From Prorocentrum cordatum (lineage: Eukaryota > Sar > Dinophyceae > Prorocentrales > Prorocentraceae): DNA of 64,000 nucleotides. A program made the position numbers and the translations under genes. Positions 2,933 to 63,300 of this stretch are shown piece by piece (the stretch's first letter is position 1; every line of letters begins with the position of its first letter). The DNA lies in the NCBI GenBank assembly GCA_963575745.1, contig CAUYUJ010016145.1, forward strand, positions 77,501 through 141,500. Reading direction: 5' to 3'. The notes under the pieces were generated by a model that was given only the letters and a program-made list of their open reading frames with translations, was not told the DNA's origin and searched no databases.

Positions 2933-3244
2933 AATATGTATGTATATATAGGAACCGACGTACACACAAAACACTGCGGATCGGAACCACAGGAGAAGGG
3001 CAAGATGTAGGAACACACGTAAATCACCAAGGATTCGTGCCCAAGGGGAGGCCCAATCTATAGGAACAGTTTTAAAACACGTAGGATCGGATACACACAA
3101 GAAGGACAATCTATGGAAACATGCGTAAACACACAAAGGGTTCGTGCTCCAGCACAATCTATAGGAGCATACTTACCTATACGACCACCCTTCGGGTGAT
3201 AAGGAGGTTGTGGGGGGGGGGGGGGAAGGAGGGAACCAACATCT

Positions 3245-15625: not shown

Positions 15626-15929
15626 ACTTGCGGCCGAGCCAAATGCTCCTGGGCACATTCGCGGCAAGATGGCCGAGGCAGTAGATGCCATGGTCCCGGG
15701 GGCTGGGGGCAAGCGCAGAGCGGTGCTCACAACCCTCTGCACCCCGAGGTAACAAGCACTTGCTCATTGCCACATCTGATTCTTCCACCACCACTGAGCC
15801 GTGCATCCGTGTGGACGCGTAGGCAAGTCACGCCGAACGCGCGCTTGTGCCAGGAGACCAGACACGCGTACGCCAAACGCGTCCGCGACAGTCTGCCAAG
15901 CGCAAAGCCACAACAATGACGACGACGAA
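15626..15929. other. Spacer before the LINE fragment
   Basis: No separate gene seen. The minus-strand LINE frame continues open into it, but no domain can be recognised. Confidence 0.4.
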
Positions 15930-17000
15930 GATAGATGATGATAAAATGAAACCTACCTGCGTTGAGACATTTCGAACACTGCAGTTCCCCAGCGTTGCCT
16001 TGGCCTCCCTCTTTTTCTGCGCACAGCCCATTGCTTCGGAGCACCATCGTTCTTGCAAAGTATAGTTTCGACCATGTTTGAATCACTTCCGTTTGCAATT
16101 TTCCGATATAATGCCACTTGCTTGTCCAATAGGATCTCAGATAGAGGCGTCGCCCCAGTCTTTTCCAGAACAATGGCGTTGCTGACCCTTGAAAGGAAGG
16201 ACGGCGGAATACCAATACACGTCTGACACATCTACAATGAAACGCGTCCAAACGCGCCCTGTCCGCTGCGAGCAGCCAAACAGTGTCCAGGGAGTGCAGG
16301 AGCTTGCTCAGAACACAGCTTCGGTATATGTCATAGTTTCTCTTGCGGCCCACTGCAGCATGAGACCAAACTTTCCTTAGATCTTGGAAAATCTTGCTTG
16401 CTTCCCCGAGTCGCCGCGAAACTTCCGACGTTGCTTTGCCATCACACGTGATAAGACCTCCAAGGTAAACGGCTTCCCGGGCAGCTTTCATGATTTCACC
16501 TCTGGGTCCGGAAATGGACTCCCGAGTGGAGATTTGTATTTGTACAGTTTTCCCCCAGTTCAATTCTAACCCATATTTCTCGCCTTCTTCCAGACTGGCT
16601 GCTAGCATTTTTTCCATGTTACTTTTGTGATGCGATATCAGCAGTGTGTCGTCTGCCTACAAGATATCTCGAGTGACTACATAATCCGGCTCCGGCTCCA
16701 ATTGTAAGTTAGCGAAGGCGTCGTGGAGCATGATTGTTTGCATAATAACGGACAATTATGGTGATAGCCGGCACCCCTGGGCTATTCCAGCTTGTTGCCG
16801 CCGTTCCGAGGAGCATCCTGTGTGGTCCATGATGGTGAAAAATATTGCGCTGTAAATCGACCGTACCATTTGCACCATTTCCACAGGCAGCCCAAATCGT
16901 TGTAAGGATTCACACATACAATCGGGCTTCACTCTGTCGAAAGCTTTGGCCCAATCCAACATCAACAAGAGGACCCCGCCATCGACTGCCCAACCTGCAC
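15930..17000 (-). pseudogene. LINE reverse-transcriptase fragment (decayed)
   Basis: Read on the minus strand from about 17000. The RT palm begins LDWAKAFDRVKPD, then LQRFGLPVEMVQMVRSIYSA and AGIAQGCRLSP (the usual G..QG..LSP motif). It continues through the metal-binding ADDTLLISHH, where the expected Tyr codon before ADD is now a TAG stop (about 16660). The thumb and C-terminal part follow: KYGLELNWGKT, AVYLGGLITCDGK, VLSKLLHSLDTVWLL. A frame break and stops make it non-functional. It lacks endonuclease and N-terminal parts. Because it follows an RNase H domain on the same strand, it belongs to a second LINE abutting the one at 17.0-21.8 kb. Confidence 0.85.
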
Positions 17001-17089
17001 CACTGGTGGACCCTCCTGGGCTCCTGGCTCCTGGGCCTCGGGAGCACGGGGGCCCCGGATGTCGACTAGGACTTCCCAGTCCCCGGGAG

Positions 17090-17740
17090 GGCCCCGCCGC
17101 CGCCGCCCCTTGCGGGCGGGGCTGAGAGACCCGATGGGCTGATCCGGTCCTGTGGGCCCCGCCTTGGGGGCCGCAGGGGGCCAAAGCTGTGGGGCATCCA
17201 GAATCCACCGATAGTTGCCGAGCAGCTTGTGGTCTCGCACGGCGGATTCGGTCTCGAGCTGGCTCGGGGGGACCCGTGATAGCTGCCAACTTGGCCATGC
17301 GGTCAGCAGCGTCGTTTCCTTTTGGCGTCTCGCCACTGGTCCGAACCAGGAAGGCAATTCCTGAACGTTCACATGCGCCTTAGTTTTGCAGAACCTGGGG
17401 CCAAGGCAAGCCAGCGCGGCCCGTCCGAGCATTTTGAAGGCGGCATGAAGATCCGAGCGGGAAACAAGTGACTTCTTGAGCACCTCGATGGCGCCTTGAC
17501 AAACTACAAAAACTCGGCCTGTAGATTTCGCATTGAGAACTGCAACCGTCACGCGACCGTGCTCAGCAGCTGGGGAGGTTTGTGGCAAAAGGTTGTCAAC
17601 CCTCCCTGTCATACATGCATGCAGGTCTCCGTATGCCCCGACATGTCGGGACCCCGACATGGTGTGGCGACATGTAGGGGTCCCGACAGCAGGACTCCGC
17701 ATTTTCGTAGCCGAATCCAGCAGGAAGCCTCGTGCCAAAA
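17090..17740 (-). pseudogene. LINE RNase H domain remnant
   Basis: Minus-strand frames show VTVAVLNAKSTGRVFVVCQG, then KTKAHVNVQE, then an ADRMAKLAA-like motif across a frame break near 17300. This order is typical of RNase H domains in LINEs, whose final motif resembles GN..AD..AK. The tail continues as DHKLLGNYRWILDAPQLWPP to about 17100. A palindromic insertion at 17644-17688 disrupts it. Confidence 0.65.
17644..17688. repeat. Palindromic insertion in LINE
   Basis: A 17-bp arm, TGTCGGGACCCCGACAT, at 17644-17660 is followed by its imperfect inverted copy at 17672-17688. The left arm is itself nearly palindromic. Confidence 0.8.
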
Positions 17741-17779
17741 TCCGACAGAAACTGGAAGCCTGAGGCCAGGACCTGGTAG

Positions 17780-18181
17780 GTCAGGTTCGCGATTCTCTCG
17801 AGCTCATCCCCTGGGGAGGCTTCTCGGACCTCTGCGGCCTTGGCACATTCTAAACAACCGTGCTTGATATTGTCGTGCCTGTGACCACGTTCACACTCTG
17901 GGTTCGCTAGGTTGCCTGCAGAAATAAGCCTGGCGTGGGTCCAGATACCATGTGAGAAAAAATGGCGTAAACCTGGCCTTTGCGTCCCGCATTTGTCCTC
18001 CTGCCAACTTACGGGCTGCACTGACATTGTAAACCTCCTGGGGGTAGCCTAACTTGATGGCAGCTCGTTTTACATTCAGCCTGTCCCAGGCTGTCTGCAT
18101 CGTGAGGACAATGAATTTGGGGGTGCAAGTCGCGGGCGGATACTCTAATCCGCTCTCGTCTCGCATTGTCCGAGCCGACAC
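17780..18181 (-). pseudogene. LINE post-RT region remnant
   Basis: Minus-strand frames: KFIVLTMQTAWDRLNVKRAA, KLGYPQEVYNVSAARKLAGG, then a C..C...H..H....C cluster (CERGHRHDNIKHGCLEC) across a frame break near 17900. This is the linker and Cys/His knuckle typically found between RT and RNase H in such LINEs. Confidence 0.55.
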
Positions 18182-18189
18182 TAATTCCC

Positions 18190-18470
18190 ATCCGATCCTC
18201 TCGAGGGACAGGTAGGCAGCCCCAAAGGGGCCTCTCTCAGTGCACCGACTCCGGCTCCAACTCCGGGTCCCAATTTTCCGACTCCTGGTCCTATCCCATC
18301 TCTCCGACTCCGGCCCCGATTCCTATTTCCATCTTCCCGACGATGGTCCCGATTCTGGTCAAATGTATTCGACAGTGGCAGTACGTGTGATTATTCTTTT
18401 CTGACTGCGGCTCCGTCACCCACTCCCATTTTTCCGACCCGGCTGCCATTTCCCAACCCCGGCTTCTGAG
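18190..18470. repeat. GACTCCGGCTCC-type minisatellite
   Basis: Degenerate hexamer/dodecamer repeats (CCGACTCCGGC, CCGATTCC) inside the LINE. The related GATTCC repeat occurs at 22800-23000 and 28450-28720. Confidence 0.75.
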
Positions 18471-18593
18471 CGGCGCCCCGGCGCCCTCCCGCCGCACCCT
18501 CGTAGGTGCATCGGCGCGGGCTCTTCTCTTCAGTGCACCACTTTGGGGAGGGCCAGTTAGAGTGGCTCTGCTAGGCTTCTCAATTCTCGAAGC

Positions 18594-18900
18594 TCACGGG
18601 GATCCGATGCCTGGGTCGTCGCTCCCTAGATCACGGTAGCCCATGCCCGCGCAGGCCCCGCTCGTGCTCGCCGATGCAACCGCCTGCAGCTGACTGGGCA
18701 TGCCTCCTGCGAGCTCGATCAACTCGAGGACGCGGCAGGCAATCCTCGCCTGCCCTGCCGAAAGGAATTGCAAGTGCTCGGGGTGAAGCCCCGACCACGT
18801 GGAGGACGGCATGCGAGAGAGTCCCAGCAGCATCTATAGTACTCTCGGGCTCCAGTCCTGGTAGCCGTGGCCCAGGAGGTCTCGCATGCCATACTTCGGC
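18594..18900 (-). pseudogene. LINE RT N-terminal remnant
   Basis: Minus-strand frame STWSGLHPEHLQFLSAGQAR followed by ELIELAGGMPSQLQAVASAS corresponds to the G.HP.HL..LS ... G.. PSQL region before the RT fingers. Confidence 0.55.
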
Positions 18901-19107
18901 CTGAGGTTGCTGAGCCTGCCAGCCTCGCGCTCCGAGATCCTGGTGGGGCGCCCAGTCATGGAGCCTTTTTTATGAAGTACTTGCGATGGCTGCCAGGCGT
19001 CCAGGGAACTGGTCCAGCGGCGCGCCCATCCAGCGTTGCCTTGAGTGCATATCTGGACCCATCCCCGCCAGGCCCGAAACGCTTCCTGCCTCTCTCAAGT
19101 GACCTCC

Positions 19108-19143
<36 letters not shown>

Positions 19144-19152
19144 CATACATAC

Positions 19153-19186
<34 letters not shown>
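19108..19186. repeat. TA / CATA microsatellite inside LINE
   Basis: Alternating TA with CATACATA blocks. It interrupts the minus-strand LINE between endonuclease and RT remnants. Confidence 0.95.
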
Positions 19187-19499
19187 CAGCTCCGTGGTTT
19201 TGCTCAAACCTTCCCTAGCATGTTGAAGCCGATCGCCTCCTCCAGTAGCCCAGCCATACGATGTTGAATGTCTGCGCCGTGCTGTCGGGGCTGGCGCGGA
19301 GGGCCTCGGACTCCTGAAATTGTGTCGTGGGGTCCTCAGGGCTCTCTACGGCATTCTACAACGCGGCGATACCCATCTTCTGGACGTGGAAGAAGATCCG
19401 CTGCGCAACATTCCTCAGGCACCTCATTGGGCCTGCGTGTAATTTCCAGGCAACTCTAGTATGCTTGAGCACATGGGATGTTGGGATGGTTGTATCGAT

Positions 19500-20410
19500 T
19501 TAACCCGTGGAGGACAGGCCTGAGGCCACGAACTTGGTTTCAAAATCGTATCCGTCAAATCGGCAATCGCGTTTGCCAAATCCCTGGCCAGAAGATGCTA
19601 AAGCTGGTCCGCAATCCGTTGAGGCTGCTGCGGCTCGAGATGCTGGGCGCCATTGGCAAGCAACTACGCGGCCGCGTCCGGCGCGGCCTCCGCGGCGAGC
19701 CGCTTTCGCTCTGGCCGCCTGGAGCCAGATGCTAGTTTGGTCGGCGGCCCCTGCGGCTTGCACCAAACGAGCATAGTGAAGGCTGGTCGATGCGGAGAGA
19801 GAGGGCACCGATGGTGAATCCAAGGATCTCCAAGACTTATCCCAGACTGCTGCTTCCCGCAAAATAGTCCAAGGTACTCTAAGCATTCTTGGCCCTGAAG
19901 GTGGGGATCCCTCGGGCATAAAGACACAGACTGGCTCGCTGGACAGAATCATGGTACCTGAGCTTGTTAGAGAAGTTGCAAAGTCCCTTGTGAGGGGGAT
20001 GGGGACCTGCGCAGCCTCCTGGACAATAGCAGCTGCAGCAAGCAACCCTAGATTAGTTTCGTTCAGGCCATCGCTGACATGCATATGAACCGACAGACTA
20101 CAAACTTCTCCAAACCCAGGCAGTTCAACAATGACCCCAGCCGTCCTTCCCTGGGGTATCAACCTGTCAGCTTTCTTGGGGAAAACAAATCGGGCGCGTT
20201 CCCAAATCAAAACCATCCCTGATCAAAACACAAACCCCATTGATGTAGTCTGAGTCGAATTGAATGTGCCTGCTTGAAATACTGGTTTCTGACCTCTACG
20301 CTCGCACCACTGGATTGCCTTCACTATGCCAGAACCGGGTCTTCCATCAGCTGCTTGACGGAGTTCCAGCAGTTGCCATTGACCGTGATGGTGCGGATGG
20401 TGTCCTGCCC
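19500..20410 (-). pseudogene. LINE AP-type endonuclease (EEP) remnant
   Basis: Starting near 20400 on the minus strand, VNGNCWNSVKQLMED matches the usual start of this domain. Then RARFVFPKKADRLIPQGRTA, GVIVELPGFGEVCSLSVHMH, SDGLNETNLGLLAAAAIVQE and LTRDF follow. The last corresponds to the (G)DFN metal-binding strand, with the rest lost. Early stops and frame changes occur (near 20325, 19990). Confidence 0.7.
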
Positions 20411-20702
20411 ACCCTGCGCGCCCGCCTCACTGACCTGCACCCTGGTGCGGAGGATCGCGCCATGAACTCACTGGAGCCTCTTGGCCACGTCATCTGCTCC
20501 AAGACCTGCCGCAAGTAACTGTCGTGATGCGCGCCTCCGCAGCCCTCTTCTCGCTGGCAGCATGAGCTCGTCCTCGTCTTCGCTATCACCTCCTGCTGGA
20601 AGGCTGAGCCCTCCACCTCTGCCGGCAGCAGCCTCTGGTGGAACTTGCGCTGCTCACGTTGCCCCTTGACCAATTGTTGGTGCTGCTCCTGCAGGGCGTG
20701 GA

Positions 20703-21572
20703 TCAGGTGCCACGGGTGCGGCTGGTTCCTGAGCTTCGAGCGTCGGTGGTTTCGGCTTCTGACTGGTATGAACTGTATCGGGTAGTGATTTCACTCTCCG
20801 CGAGCTTGACGCCGAGCTCTGGTGGTAAAGCCCGCTGTGGTGTCTGAATCCTGGACGATATGAGCGCTGTGAACGCTTCCGCCAGTGCCCCCTTGTTTGT
20901 GATTGCTGTCGCCGCCGCATGCGTGACCTCATGCAGGTGCGCACCTAACCTCTGAACATCCTCCATGAACCCGCGATGCTCACTGATTGCCTTGACCTGC
21001 TTGGCTGCAAGCTGCTCGAACTGCTGGCTGTCGCTGTCGATCTGGGTCTTTGGGGTCGCCATCTTCCTCTTCTGCCGAGCGAGCTGGTCCTTGATCGATT
21101 GGGCCTGCTGATTTGGGGATCTGTCCGCAAACGCGATGTGCTTGGCCAATTTGAGGGCTTCAATCGCATCCGTGCACTGCTTTTCCTGGTCGCCCATCCG
21201 CTGCTTCCAGAACGCGGCTTGTGCCCGAGCCCGCTCGATTGGTGACGGCTGCTGTTCTGCATCTGGTGGTTGGGCCGGACCTGCTGCATCACCTGCTGCC
21301 TTGCCATTGGGAGCTCTCGAACTGGCGCATCGCCAGCGCCCTCGTCCGTGTTCTTCATAAGATTGCACATGCTCTGCACCCCAGGATACTGCACGGTCAT
21401 TGCGTCCACCTCGTCCTCCTCCTTTGACGGCTGGGGGAGTGCCGGGGGCCTTGGTTTTGTTGTCCGCCAGATTCGTGCCGCACGTTGTGCAGTGGCTGGC
21501 TCCACGATCTGCCCAAGCCCAGCCGCCGCGGCCAGACTTGAGGCACACTGCGCACGTCCGTGCCACCATCAA
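20703..21572 (-). pseudogene. LINE N-terminal protein: zinc finger plus coiled coil
   Basis: A 289-codon intact frame. Residues about 8-36 hold CAVC ... CTTC, a four-cysteine zinc-binding motif with Trp residues between. The rest is charged and helical (EALKLAKHIAFADRSPNQQA, RQKRKMATPKTQIDSDSQQF), a coiled coil as in LINE ORF1-like regions that bind RNA. It starts 184 nt after the spliced-leader relic. It ends before the endonuclease region, from which it is separated by frame breaks. Long and uninterrupted compared with the rest of the element. Confidence 0.6.
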
Positions 21573-21755
21573 GCCGCAGCTGTCGTGAACACTGTCTGGA
21601 CAGGGTGCGAGGTAGCCCCTTGGGCGCGGGATGCCTGTGGGCTTCCACAGCGTGGCCTCGGCCGTGATGCTGGCCGAGGTGGTGGGCCTGTGGAAGGGGC
21701 TGGCCTTCCGCCTCGGCCTCGGACCTCTGGAGCCGGGGCCGGGGATAAGCTCCGT

Positions 21756-21777
21756 CTTGAGCCAAAACGGCTACGGA
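21756..21777 (-). other. Relict dinoflagellate spliced leader (LINE 5' end)
   Basis: On the minus strand this is the 22-nt leader with one transition (20 of the 21 fixed positions). It is at the 5' side of the LINE N-terminal frame, which shows that the LINE transcript was trans-spliced before being copied into DNA. Confidence 0.9.
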
Positions 21778-29429: not shown

Positions 29430-29786
29430 AGGCCTTGGAAAACTCTCTGGGGCCTCTTAGGCTATTCTGCGGGGGCCTCGGGGGCATCCTGGGGCCCCGC
29501 TGGCTGTGTCGGGGGCCAACTTGGGACGGAGGGCTCCACATTCAAGTTCAGGTACATCATCTCTGGCCGCTCTGAAGAGCTTAGGAGCGTTTTGGGAGCT
29601 CTTGGGGTCCTCGGAGGCTCTCTTGGAGGCCTCGAACGCTGTCGTCGGGGGATGTTCGGAACCGTGCGTGCCGCCTTGAACGCTCAGAAGACCAAATAGC
29701 CGAGCGAAAGATGATCCTCGAATCAACGTATGGCTTTAAATGACTTCGGCCCCGTGGGCCAGCTTCCAGGGCCTCGAAGACGGCCC
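29430..29786 (+). repeat. CTCTTGGGG-type minisatellite
   Basis: Degenerate GGGGCCTCTTAGG/GGAGCTCTTGGGGTCC units at 29430-29660, then GC-rich DNA with related GGCCC blocks up to the target duplication. Confidence 0.6.
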
Positions 29787-29807
29787 AAGAGGCCCCCACG
29801 AGAGCCC
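29787..29807 (+). other. 5' target-site duplication of the retrogene
   Basis: 21 bp (AAGAGGCC ... GAGAGCCC) identical to 31487-31507. It ends one base before the spliced leader begins, so it marks the left border of a retroposed mRNA copy. Confidence 0.9.
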
Positions 29808-29829
29808 TCCGTAGCCATTTTGGCTCAAG
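29808..29829 (+). other. Perfect dinoflagellate spliced leader at retrogene 5' end
   Basis: All 22 positions match the known leader (variable first base is T here). A possible second, decayed leader piece follows (29830-29844, about 9 of 15 positions, weak). Lies 110 nt before the start codon. Confidence 0.97.
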
Positions 29830-29939
29830 CTTTTTCGCCTCAGCCACTCTGTGGCGCTCCAGTGATCGCGTCGCCTCGGCACACGCGTGCCTGCTTCCGC
29901 TGCAGACCAGAGCTCACACCTCATCACCGTCTCGCCCGG

Positions 29940-31160
29940 ATGGCGCCGCACCGCCGCAGCGAAGACATGGAGTTCAGCAGCGACAGCGACGCGGCCGCGC
30001 CGGCCGCTGGCTGGAGCACCAGCAGGGTCCTCGGTTGCGCGGCGCTGGCGAGTGCCGCCTGCGCCGCGGGCGGCTTCGCGGCAGGTGGCGGCGCCAGCTC
30101 ACCAGGGGGTGGCCTCGCGGCCAGGCGCGAGTTGCTGCAGGTGCTGGCAAAGCCGGCGCGGGAGAAGTGCAGCGACGTGTCCGGGGATTGCTTCGATACT
30201 GCGTGCTGCGACGTGGCTGGCTTCACCTGCTTCGTGACGACCACGCCTGGCTCGGCCCAGTGCATGAAGAACTGCACGCCCAGCGAGACGACGGCCTGCG
30301 CGGTGCCTGTGCCCAAGGTCGGCGAGCCGATGTACTTAGACAACGCCGTAGCACCTGGAACATCGATGTATTGCTTCTCCGTTTACATGGCAGACACTGG
30401 CAGCGACGGCAAAACCGAGCGCCCGGACGAGCTGAACTTGCTGAAGGCGGCGTACGACAGGAAGATAGGCATCTTCGCGTGCGAGCAGTGGGGCATTTTC
30501 AGCGACAAGCCAGGCGACCTGGCCCCTGGCGTGCCCTTCGTGGCGGTGGACGACGCCGATGGTGACTTCCACATTCTCAAACGCAAGGAGACCGGCACCT
30601 GGATTAACACAGGATTGCACACACAGGTCTGGAAGGCGATCAGGGCGGCGGGAGACTACCAGCGCGCCAGCTGGGTGGTCAAGGTAGATTGCGATGCGGT
30701 GTTCTTTCCCAGCCGCTTGAGGCCCTTCCTTGCCTCCCAGGGCGAGCCTGGGAGCGGTGTGCCCGGCATCTACCTCGAGAACTGCAAATACTGTAAGTGG
30801 GGTTGGTTCGGGAACTTGGAGATCATGTCGCTGACTGCCGCCCAGACGCTGTTCCCGAACATCGAATGGTGCAAGCAGGTCCTGGATTGGAAAACGGGAG
30901 TGGAGGGCGGCAAGTACGGGCCGATGGGGGAGGACCTTTTCGCTCAGAGCTGCTTAGACGCCATGGGTGTGCGCCGCGGCGGGGCGTTCGACACTACTCT
31001 GGACGCGGCCTGCGAGGCGGATCGCCCAGAGGACCAGAAAAAGAACAAGAAATGGAGGCCTGACTGCACGGAGAGGAAGACCGCAGCATATCATCCCATG
31101 ATGAAGGTGGGTGATTACGTGAAGTGCTTCGAGAAGACGGTGGAGGCATTCGGGTACTGA
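29940..31160 (+). CDS. Type II membrane glycosyltransferase-like protein (retrogene)
   Basis: 406 residues, intact, intronless. The start was chosen as the first in-frame ATG after the spliced leader; the frame is also open upstream. Residues 1-29 are a short acidic cytosolic tail. About 30-50 form a small-residue hydrophobic segment (VLGCAALASAACAAGGFAAG), a likely signal anchor. 77-112 is a Cys-rich module (CSDVSGDCFDTACC ... CMKNC) resembling small carbohydrate-binding modules. About 170-350 looks like a GT-A type catalytic domain: GIFACEQWGIFSD, then VVKVDCDAVFF with a DCD (DxD) metal and sugar-nucleotide site at 250-252, then NCKYCKWGWFGNLEIMS and GPMGEDLFAQSCLD. Probable site is the Golgi or cell surface, acting on glycans; the exact family and substrate are unknown. 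The perfect leader, lack of introns and 21-bp target duplications show it was copied from mRNA. Confidence 0.85.
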   Translation: MAPHRRSEDMEFSSDSDAAAPAAGWSTSRVLGCAALASAACAAGGFAAGGGASSPGGGLAARRELLQVLAKPAREKCSDVSGDCFDTACCDVAGFTCFVTTTPGSAQCMKNCTPSETTACAVPVPKVGEPMYLDNAVAPGTSMYCFSVYMADTGSDGKTERPDELNLLKAAYDRKIGIFACEQWGIFSDKPGDLAPGVPFVAVDDADGDFHILKRKETGTWINTGLHTQVWKAIRAAGDYQRASWVVKVDCDAVFFPSRLRPFLASQGEPGSGVPGIYLENCKYCKWGWFGNLEIMSLTAAQTLFPNIEWCKQVLDWKTGVEGGKYGPMGEDLFAQSCLDAMGVRRGGAFDTTLDAACEADRPEDQKKNKKWRPDCTERKTAAYHPMMKVGDYVKCFEKTVEAFGY

Positions 31161-31486
31161 GTTCTTGGGAGACGCGCTCTGCGACTTACTTCGAAGAAGT
31201 GGCAGCGCAAGAGTTGTTGCCCGATACTCGTGCACGGATGTGTCATCAGCACGTTTTTTTGAGCTGCCACGAGTCAACGTCCTCGTGGCTGAGTGCTCGG
31301 TCGATGCGAGGCCCGTATCCTCCGAGGTGCGCTTGTGGTGGACCCGCGGCGCGCAATTAACATACAAATTATGACCTCTGGGATGTCGCCAGGGGGGAGA
31401 TGACTTCTCCTGCGGTGACCTATCGATGCCGACTGCCAAGCTGGAGGCCCTGAACCCATGAGTCGTCATGCCGGCCCACGGAAAAG
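31161..31486 (+). other. Retrogene 3' untranslated region
   Basis: 326 nt between the stop codon and the right target duplication. It ends in GGCCCACGGAAAAG; the short AAAA may be all that is left of a poly(A) tail. Confidence 0.7.
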
Positions 31487-31507
31487 AAGAGGCCCCCACG
31501 AGAGCCC
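31487..31507 (+). other. 3' target-site duplication of the retrogene
   Basis: Perfect 21-bp match to 29787-29807. It defines the inserted segment as 29808-31486 (1679 bp). Confidence 0.9.
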
Positions 31508-31932
31508 AGGGACGCTCCATTGGGGCTGATGAGATTCCCTGAGCCTTTTTGAACATTGCTTGGAAGGCCATCGGGGGGTACTGGAATCGGTTTGGGCGGG
31601 TTGGGATTCCCAGAGGACCACGGGAGAAACGCTGGAAGCAGCTAGGAATTCCGGCAATTGTTGGGCTGGGCCCTTGAAGACTCCGACCATCTCGAGTTTT
31701 AGGGCACGCCGCTTCATGCTAAATGCACGGTGAGGATCTTCATCCTGTCCTCCCCTCGCTCCACATCAGCTCTGTCCGACTGACGCCAGCCTCCACGCCA
31801 TCATCAGGATAGGGCGCGGCGCTTTCTGGGCTCGGAATTGGCACGCGGAGTCATACTCAATCACGCGAGGCATGGTCGAGGCCGAGCTGCGCCTCACCAG
31901 GATCGGTGAGCGCCGTGCCGAAAGTTATCTTG
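31508..31932. other. Unassigned DNA
   Basis: Continuation of the pre-insertion locus. No gene or repeat recognised. Confidence 0.4.
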
Positions 31933-34257: not shown

Positions 34258-34279
34258 ACCGCAGTCACTTTGACTCAAG
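34258..34279 (+). other. Decayed spliced-leader relic of CTP synthase
   Basis: 17 of the 21 fixed leader positions match, and all four differences are transitions. The first (variable) base is A. It sits 28 nt before the start codon, where an mRNA leader would be. Confidence 0.8.
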
Positions 34280-46925: not shown

Positions 46926-46962
46926 TGCGTAGTCATTCTGGCTCAAGTCATTTTGGTTCAAG
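46926..46962 (+). other. Two tandem spliced-leader relics
   Basis: 46926-46947 matches the leader at 18 of 21 fixed positions. The next 15 bases (46948-46962) match its last 15 positions at 13 of 15. This junction is what results when a genomic copy that already carries a leader is transcribed and trans-spliced again at the AG inside the old leader. Confidence 0.9.
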
Positions 46963-57124: not shown

Positions 57125-57202
57125 ATATGTTTGTAATATGTTTGTATCTCCCCTGTGTCCTCGTGCTCTTGGCCGTCCGTTCCATAATCGTTCTGGCTCA
57201 AG
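57125..57202 (+). repeat. Split direct repeat A1
   Basis: About 78 bp, matching A2 at 61500-61577. The last 58 bp (ATCTCCCCTGTG.CCTCGTGC ... GCTCAAG) differ at about five positions. Its last 21 bases resemble the spliced leader at 16 of 21 positions. Confidence 0.85.
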
Positions 57203-61499: not shown

Positions 61500-61577
61500 A
61501 TATGCTGGTAAACTGTTTTTATCTCCCCTGTGACCTCGTGCTCCTGGCCGTCCGTTCCATGATCGTTCTTGCTCAAG
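61500..61577 (+). repeat. Split direct repeat A2
   Basis: Matches A1 (57125-57202). It joins B1 directly, as expected for B1-A2. Spliced-leader resemblance at its end is 14 of 21. Confidence 0.9.
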
Positions 61578-61952: not shown

Positions 61953-62350
61953 ACCGCGGGAGGCGAGGCCCCCTGGCCGCGCCCGGGGACCACAGCGGCG
62001 CATGGAGGGACTGGGGCCCCCGAAGGCCCTCACGAGGCCTCCAAGAAGCTTCCGGCCGTCCCAAGGACGCTTCCAAGAACCCCCCACAGGCTCCCAGACC
62101 AGGCAGGATCGATCCCTTCCAGAGGGCCCACGAAGCCGCGAAAACGTCTCAAGAGGGCTCCAGGATGGCTCCCAAAAGGGCCCCGGAAAGTTGACATCGC
62201 CCCATGAACGCACATTTCAAGTATCTACCCGTGGCGGGCCACCCCAGCGTGCACCACGACCCCAGACGCCGCCACGACCGCTCCCAAGTCCCTGGGTAGC
62301 TTGCCCGCACGCACGGGCTGTCGGCGGGCGCGCGCGCGACCGTGCCCGCG
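61953..62350. other. Unassigned GC-rich DNA
   Basis: GAGGCCC/AAGAGGGC-type minisatellite traces at 61960-62190. No gene recognised. Confidence 0.4.
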
Positions 62351-63300
62351 ATGGAGCGGCGCCGGTCTTCGAGCGAGGCGGCCCCAGCGAGCCCGCTGGC
62401 GCTCGGGGGGCCGCACTGCCTGCCCTCGCAAGGGGTGGTCGGGCCGCCGGAGCCGGAGGCGCCCTGGGAGCCGGCGGCGAGCGGCCCAGAGGCCCAGCCG
62501 CCCGCGAGCCCTCCGCGGCCGGGGGCTGCGGAGGTGGCGCCTCGGCGCCTCGAGGGGGAGCTCTGGCCCCAAAATTGCCCAGACTTGTGGATGCTGAGCT
62601 GCGGCATTATCCGATCGACGGGTACAGTGTTGAGCGCTGTCCTCCTCATCATGATAACCCTGTATATGTTCGCGGTTGTCGGCGAGGAGGTAGTGAGTAA
62701 GCAGGTCTCCCTTAGGGGGGCCGACGGAACGGCAGATCTCGTCGCGCAGAAATTTGACTCCGTACCGGGCGTGCTGCTAACGCTCGTGCGGTTCACCAAT
62801 GCGGATTCCCTAGCAGCATTCTACGACCCGCTGATCCGCGGGCCTGGCCTGGCGCTATACTTCGGTTCTGTGTGGGTCGTGGTGACAATTATACTCATGA
62901 ATGTCATCACCGCGACGATCGTGCAGAATGGGGTTCACCTTGGGGTCAAGGAAGAAGAAACTCTTGTAAAGTTGAAGAGGATGAAAATTCAGAAGATGTT
63001 ACCGCTGTTGATTGAGATCTTCGACACGGCACACATTTCGAACGACGGCAGATTGCAGTTGAACGAGGTCGAGGAGCTTTGCCGGTTGCCCTTGCCGCCA
63101 GAGCTCGCAGAGTGCATGTAGCCGGAGAGAAAGAAGCATCTTTTCTGGTGCTTGGACGAGGACGGATCCGGCGACATCAGCAAGGACGAGTTCTTGAACG
63201 GCGTTTGCCATATCACCTTGTCGGGATATCCATAGAAACGGCGCAGATGCTGTCGATGCTGTGGTCCCAGGGCAGGATCCTCGATCAACTGGAACTAAAG
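62351..63300 (+). pseudogene. Voltage-gated cation channel, 3' half, with EF hands
   Basis: From the ATG at 62351, about 75 Pro/Ala/Glu-rich residues lead straight into an S5 helix (GTVLSAVLLIMITLYMFAVV), a pore region (KFDSVPGVLLTLVRFTNADS) and S6 (LYFGSVWVVVTIILMNVITA). EF-hand-like sequence follows (FDTAHISNDGRLQLNEVEEL). A TAG at 63119-63121 interrupts; the same frame continues with a canonical EF-hand loop (DEDGSGDISKDEF), then a frameshift near 63215 and ETAQMLSMLWSQGRILDQLE. S1-S4, including the voltage sensor, is missing. The family conducts Ca2+ or Na+ across membranes with Ca2+ feedback; this copy cannot make a normal channel. It could instead be a terminal exon with lost upstream exons. 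Confidence 0.75.

Follow-up and report, generated by a model that had tools for sequence, protein, structure and literature searches.

A spliced-leader gene flanked by a 21-bp duplication in Prorocentrum cordatum is probably a full-length retrocopy

A spliced leader, an intact gene and a 21-bp repeat lie end to end

The window analysed here is a 64-kb stretch of Prorocentrum cordatum DNA, located by genome search at G000:C15296:77501-141500 in a 4.128-Gb assembly. It holds a gene that begins with a complete dinoflagellate spliced leader and lies between two identical 21-bp sequences, an arrangement that points to an mRNA copied back into the chromosome. The features of this insert and its borders are:

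29787..29807, forward strand: 5' copy of the 21-bp target-site duplication, AAGAGGCCCCCACGAGAGCCC; exact repeat, score 21
29808..29829, forward strand: complete dinoflagellate spliced leader TCCGTAGCCATTTTGGCTCAAG, 22/22, with 0 mismatches to DCCGTAGCCATTTTGGCTCAAG
29830..29939, forward strand: 5' untranslated region (UTR), 110 nt after the leader, placed by the alignment, the junction placement and the hairpin
29940..31160, forward strand: intact single open reading frame of 406 codons plus stop, belonging to a large gene family of P. cordatum
31161..31481, forward strand: 3' UTR, in which ~2.37 kb of a C17689 copy is missing at 31187/31188
31482..31486, forward strand: AAAAG, the last 5 nt of the insert, in the polyadenylation site region and possibly templated
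31487..31507, forward strand: 3' copy of the 21-bp target-site duplication, 21/21, exact repeat

The original prediction had a 22/22 leader at the first base after a 21-bp repeat, an intact 406-codon gene behind it and the identical 21 bp 326 nt past the stop, and all of this was recovered. The 5' 21-mer ends at 29807, the leader starts at the next base, and the 3' 21-mer directly follows GGAAAAG. This direct repeat is the only one of at least 14 bp reported in 29500-31800. The leader pattern, with up to 3 mismatches allowed, matches three times in the window and never in 100 shuffles. The window leader runs into CTTTTTCG and not into a GT donor, so it is not a spliced leader (SL) RNA gene.

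Exact repeats of at least 21 bp that recur 300-4000 nt further on end at 95 of the 64,000 window positions. Higher complexity is found at 28 of these 95, many lie within tandem arrays, and the higher-complexity repeats near 3069, 61370, 61450 and 63654 are in none of the arrays listed. The window 21-mer has a dinucleotide entropy of 2.81, under the complexity cut-off. Because long repeats are not rare here, the 21-bp repeat is weak evidence when taken alone, and its fit to the boundaries of the insert is what sets it apart. A window-wide repeat statistic was accordingly rejected as the sole test, and swapped-pair and same-locus controls were used instead.

Leaderless family copies carry an acceptor and extra UTR segments

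The closest database proteins to the window protein are from P. cordatum (99% identity). Among the best candidates scored, 104 genome matches were obtained, with runs of copies on C18715, C17689, C15180, C1447 and C7543 plus single-listed copies. Twenty family loci were fetched and their 5' and 3' flanks were aligned with the window copy, giving 21 copies for comparison. A clear leader is present in 11 of them (the window copy, L029-L032, L038-L040, L042, L044 and L046), with 0-1 mismatch or, in L030 and L031, a 1-2 nt deletion. L033, L034 and L048 have leader remnants only; L033 and L034 are the same over all 2068 nt fetched and are probably a DNA-level or an assembly duplicate. The remaining seven lack an intact leader: L045 and L047 from the C17689 array, L043 from C15180, and the single-listed L035, L036, L037 and L041.

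The junction between leader and UTR is occupied by a CAG acceptor in six of these seven leaderless copies. In L045 and L047, pyrimidine-rich DNA and CAG take the exact place of the window leader, ahead of CTTTTTCGCC. The C17689 copies read CACAG or CGCAG before CTTTTTCGCC, the point at which the window 5' UTR begins. A search for a tandem or intron-containing parent had been proposed as a check, and it turned up these C17689-type copies with an acceptor and extra UTR segments. By sequence comparison, the parental-type copies strongly support the identification of the window insert as a full-length, leader-capped retrocopy. The absence of introns from the coding region was rejected as a test for a retrocopy; it is uninformative, as an uninterrupted coding region is common to many tandem and single copies.

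Alignment located a ~160-nt 5' UTR segment in 7/7 parental-type copies that is absent from 11/11 clear-leader copies and also from the three copies with leader remnants. The segment missing from the window, at about 29922-29925, is 159 nt long with inverted-repeat ends. A 3' UTR segment was traced in two copies, ~2.37 kb in C17689 and ~0.31 kb in C7221, and both are absent from the window at one point, 31187/31188; the other five parental-type copies depart at the same place, where the near end only was read. In the 2.37-kb segment, TCCGCCGACCCCC stands 25 nt in from the start, and the complement closes the segment. The 5' segment is predicted to fold into a hairpin of 179 nt at -81.7 kcal/mol (real sequence only). 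Two excision sizes are seen for it, 159 and 165 nt; short direct repeats (ATC or TCTCG) border each, and the 5' alignment places each form in both gene lineages. Excision placements were computed for seven copies, and L038, L039 and L042 were read from the alignment. The window copy lacks both extra UTR segments and was therefore apparently made from an mRNA that had been trans-spliced and freed of introns. A reverse-transcriptase jump across the hairpin is a possible alternative for the loss of the 5' segment.

The extra segments resemble the introners and non-canonical introns of Amoebophrya and P. cordatum in having inverted repeats near their ends and no canonical splice sites (PMC7789003, PMC10666404; here and below, papers given by PMC number are represented by the available parts of their text). 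The 5' segment has 3-5 nt direct repeats across its borders, like the Amoebophrya introns with 3-5 nt border repeats (PMC7789003). Unlike introners, the segments lie in UTRs, and the 5' segment has two excision forms 6 nt apart, as deduced from the retrocopies (PMC7789003, PMC10666404).

The parental-type copies also bear on a local SL gene, or a leader present by chance before an ordinary gene, with the 21-bp repeat supplied by the AAGAGGCCCC repeat landscape. Sequences like the 21-mer do recur in the window, long repeats are not rare there, and many array and single copies alike have an open coding region with no interruption. This account is contradicted by the missing GT donor, by the acceptor and extra UTR segments that parental-type copies have in place of a leader, and by the coincidence of both insert boundaries with the repeat, and we give it next to no credence.

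Flanking duplications point to LINE-type retroposition

For the duplication test, the last 26 nt upstream of the leader were matched against the first 55 nt past the polyadenylation point in 11 leader-bearing copies. L034 (the same as L033), L044 (its 3' UTR departs), L048 (decayed leader) and the seven parental-type copies were left out. By the swapped-pair control, 7 of the 11 copies score 13-21, corresponding to duplications of ~15-21 bp, and one of 110 swapped pairings reaches at least 13 (it scores 16). The window matches at 21/21, and the cores of L029 and L032 match at 16/16 and 17/17. L042 and L039 both score 17 with one mismatch, and L039 has an additional base ahead of its leader. 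Two mismatches are present in L030 (score 20) and in the core of L038 (score 16). Copies within arrays are not independent of one another. A stricter same-locus control scored other upstream pieces of the same locus, and four copies passed it (the window copy, L029, L032 and L039; 0 of 41-47 pieces score as high). The window pair scores 21, its 44 other upstream pieces score 11 or less, and 0 of the 110 swapped pairings reach 21. A 20-bp repeat at L048 was not counted as a duplication; its flanks look like a local tandem repeat. The original prediction would have been undermined by the same 21-mer around unrelated DNA. It occurs exactly in 0 of the 91 fetched loci, which cover part of the gene family, and its best other copy in the window has two mismatches.

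These results make it very probable that 29808-31486 was copied at full length from a mature, trans-spliced and apparently intron-free mRNA of a C17689-type tandem gene, and that long interspersed nuclear element (LINE)-type machinery inserted it in trans. LINE-type (non-long terminal repeat (LTR)) machinery acting in trans would nick the chromosome. The mRNA would then be reverse-transcribed from its 3' end to the first base of the leader, and fill-in of the staggered break would leave the 21-bp duplication. We infer the LINE as the machinery, the target priming and the choice of parent copy. LINE-type target-primed retroposition is the best account because of the leader, the duplications, the A-rich ends and one LINE, L014, with the same kind of ends. 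This was also the mechanism first proposed, and it gains support from the duplications (7/11 copies by swapped pairs, 4/11 also by the same-locus control) and from the A8 end and 14-bp duplication of L014. The expected mRNA copy running from the leader to a short A-rich end held up as to its full length; the A-rich end is only AAAAG.

Duplication length separates LINE-type from LTR-type insertion. LINE-mediated retrocopies have target-site duplications of roughly 7-20 bp, and LTR integrases leave 4-6 bp. The duplications described here, 21 bp in the window and ~15-21 bp in the family, are of the LINE type and far above 4-6 bp. The A-runs at the 3' ends also argue against an LTR-type (Ty1/copia) route, in which particle cDNA is joined by integrase or template switching. 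We regard this route as improbable. It is the one favoured by Song et al. 2018, who report that dinoflagellates reuse mRNAs as genes on a large scale, describe the machinery, the mechanism and the type of retroelement behind the retrogenes as unknown, and argue for LTR elements from Ty1/copia expression (PMC6050394). The present data support LINE-type retroposition over the LTR route of that 2018 review. With a full copy, its own duplication and a parent in the same genome, the machinery question becomes testable copy by copy through duplication length, tail and parent.

Movement at the DNA level would require that a segmental duplicate or tandem-array fragment was carried by recombination with the leader and repeat already in the source. 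The family does live in tandem arrays, both C18715 units have a leader with one mismatch, and L033 and L034 are identical over 2068 nt. Opposed to this are flanks that differ among the leader-bearing copies, homology that stops at the leader and at the A-tract, and the exact 21-mer being found in none of the 91 loci fetched from part of the family and elsewhere. A DNA-level origin is thus considered very unlikely.

Several observations weigh against a LINE-made, full-length retrocopy. L030, L038 and L042 fail the same-locus control (17/45, 2/55 and 5/45 pieces score as high) because they are located in repetitive DNA. Four of the 11 copies (L031, L033, L040 and L046) have no clear duplication by the swapped-pair control: none was found at L031 or L033, L046 lies in a (TCA)n tract, and the L040 score of 9 tops all 55 same-locus pieces and is equalled by 6 of 110 swapped pairings. 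Repeats of the same degenerate AAGAGGCCCC type as the 21-mer recur in the window. The A-run may come from the template and not from an added tail; a parental copy reads AAAAAG where the window has AAAAG. At the acceptor, a decayed leader-like relic with 3-6 of 22 positions mismatched persists in five of the seven parental-type copies, L036 among them with CAA in place of CAG; the two C17689 copies are without a relic (7-8 mismatches at that place). The relics in the five copies suggest a still earlier round of retroposition. No placement of the 5' segment gives GT-AG, GC-AG or GA-AG ends, and for this reason the removal of the UTR segments as introns spliced from RNA is only deduced from the retrocopies. 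Finally, a duplication outside simple or local repeats was obtained at only one of eight genomic leader loci tested, L014. The same-locus control took a little off our confidence in LINE-type retroposition, which stays high.

Relict leaders in dinoflagellate genomic genes were reportedly described by Slamovits and Keeling in 2008. The window copy shares with DinoSL-tagged retrogenes a leader (22/22) upstream of the gene, where those have a leader or relic, and repeated rounds that stack relics truncated at the leader AG, here in L029 (PMC6050394, PMC12014239). Leaderless parental copies (7/21) and the loss of 159 nt and ~2.37 kb accompany it. It differs from them in its two exact ends, in the duplications at several copies and in a parental form with an acceptor and extra UTR segments (PMC6050394, PMC12014239). 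The literature surveyed, which left preprints and most subscription papers outside its scope, described neither target duplications at dinoflagellate retrogenes nor LINEs that start with the leader. Mammalian LINE-1 processed retrocopies are likewise intronless, with a 3' A-run, a target duplication and insertion in trans. Unlike these, the 5' end here is complete and marked by a trans-spliced leader, and the A-runs are only ~4-9 nt. Endogenous dinoRNAV copies of Symbiodiniaceae are comparable in that a nearby leader is taken as a sign of retroposition and LINEs are among the proposed helpers (PMC10235124). Those copies are viral, the leader lies within 500 bp in 6/26, and the available part of that account contains no target duplications (PMC10235124).

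Genomic leaders often precede LINE-like elements

The leader with up to one mismatch occurs 12,102 times on the forward and 12,090 times on the reverse strand of the genome (24,192 in all), and the backwards pattern occurs 0 times. Two Symbiodinium genomes have 496 and 244 putative leaders, counted by another method (PMC8045281). The first 20 listed copies (L009-L028), the head of the listing and not a random sample, were taken with ~9.4 kb of downstream DNA. Relatives of LINE reverse transcriptases were detected on the same strand at 14 of the 20 (tblastn, nine element frames, E ≤1e-10). The 64-kb window, the sole comparison in the same search, gave 0 matches at 1e-10. A match at L016 was not counted; it falls in the overlap with L015.

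Twelve proteins were tested against Pfam. RVT_1 is above the cut-off in L013, L015, L017, L019 and L025 and below it in L009, L018, L022, L026 and L027; L020 and L023 have no Pfam match. Exo_endo_phos is above the cut-off in L013, L017 and L019, which thus carry both domains above the cut-off downstream of a leader, and below it in L018. L014 has a leader, an ordinary insertion site, an A8 end and an exact 14-bp duplication. Its reverse transcriptase matches L018 by tblastn at 2.6e-51, with Pfam matches below the cut-off and a broken frame. It is the one LINE in eight loci tested with ends that match the retrocopies. L010 has no duplication, and the other six loci match only in simple or local repeats. 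The pairs L009/L015, L014/L026 and L018/L023 were rejected as mutual repeats; only L013 and L025 align at length.

Directly before the leader, at least 21 of 24 nt are pyrimidines (27 loci) or purines (12 loci) in 39 of the first 60 listed copies (L009-L028, L052-L091), a threshold chosen within this analysis. Many of these tracts are (TCC)n or (GGA)n, and in several loci a like tract resumes ~5-6.5 kb downstream of the leader. This placement is like that of the non-LTR retrotransposons that target microsatellites (PMC4640811). The endonuclease is different: those elements have a restriction-like enzyme (PMC4640811), and the P. cordatum elements have Exo_endo_phos (L013, L017, L019 and weakly L018).

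A decayed example may be present in the window itself:

21756..21777, reverse strand: leader relic with one mismatch, after a polypyrimidine tract and upstream of the element below
15727..21755, reverse strand: decayed LINE-like element, its extent and its link to the relic being deduced

Its two reverse-transcriptase pieces, 16756-17379 (RVT_1 7.5e-06) and 15727-16656 (RVT_1 4.5e-04), are both below the Pfam cut-off, and it has only weak matches to the sampled LINE families.

Other leader-like sequences were seen in the window. Two decayed leaders stand in tandem at 46926-46962 on the forward strand, immediately behind a (TCC)n tract, the arrangement that a twice-recycled element would leave. 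A relic with five mismatches at 34258-34279 lies a short way ahead of the probable start of a CTP synthase gene that seems to have a single frame and may be an old retrogene. Relics at 57181-57202 and 61556-61577 (five and seven mismatches) lie in a 78-nt repeat common to both, at 88% identity.

A genomic leader may thus mark a LINE and not a host retrogene, which bears on retrogene counts based on leaders. A wider scheme, to which we give about an even chance, is that genomic P. cordatum leaders are mostly the 5' ends of trans-spliced LINEs whose machinery copies host mRNAs from cap to tail. Retrocopies that land in microsatellites would be amplified by unequal exchange into single-exon arrays, and the transcripts of these arrays would be copied again. 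If so, trans-splicing, retroposition and tandem single-exon arrays form one cycle, and leader counts overstate host retrogenes.

Retrocopies may be amplified and recopied

The C18715 array units L044 and L046 carry a leader with one change, CCATTTGGGCTCAAG. The spacer in this array runs from the 3' UTR to the polyadenylation point, then through a trinucleotide microsatellite to the next leader (based on one spacer and on the upstream side of L044; L044, L046 and L051). With this structure the array looks like the product of a retrocopy inserted into a microsatellite and then amplified in place, and C18715 suggests how a single retrocopy can give rise to a tandem single-exon array. An A-rich stretch is found in L029, L032 and L033 where the C18715 spacer continues ATCATC. 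A fresh perfect leader opens both L029 and L032, with CCATTTGGGCTCAAG next in L029 and CCATTTGGG next in L032. The coding sequence groups L029 with L044 (support 0.865). L029 and L032 are probable second-round retrocopies because each has a fresh leader ahead of a mutated C18715-type relic, together with an A-rich tail. Elsewhere in the genome, L087, L088 and L089 (G000:C39) are three leader copies that lie within ~8.3 kb, have near-identical flanks and lack a GT donor behind the leader, perhaps another retrocopy array.

The window copy looks young and still constrained

Between the window copy and its nearest relative among the 20 copies compared, 20-22 of 1221 nt differ. The window copy has 10 private coding changes, of which three are nonsynonymous compared with 6.5 expected (P = 0.019). 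L029 and L044 are closer to each other than the window copy is to its nearest copy. By these comparisons the window copy looks young and still constrained, and it does not look like the youngest. The insertion had been called recent. Young is a fair description in relative terms; newest is not, given the private changes and the distance to the closest copy.

The description of the protein as glycosyltransferase-like draws on the UniRef label 'Hexosyltransferase' and on a DxD-like motif, whose D250 and D252 are invariant in 36 aligned proteins. No match was obtained to Pfam, NCBIfam or the PDB sequences. On the label and the motif, the protein is a putative glycosyltransferase.

Near the end of the window, the frame at 62342-63121 encodes an Ion_trans domain (1.6e-08) and is perhaps one exon of a larger gene.

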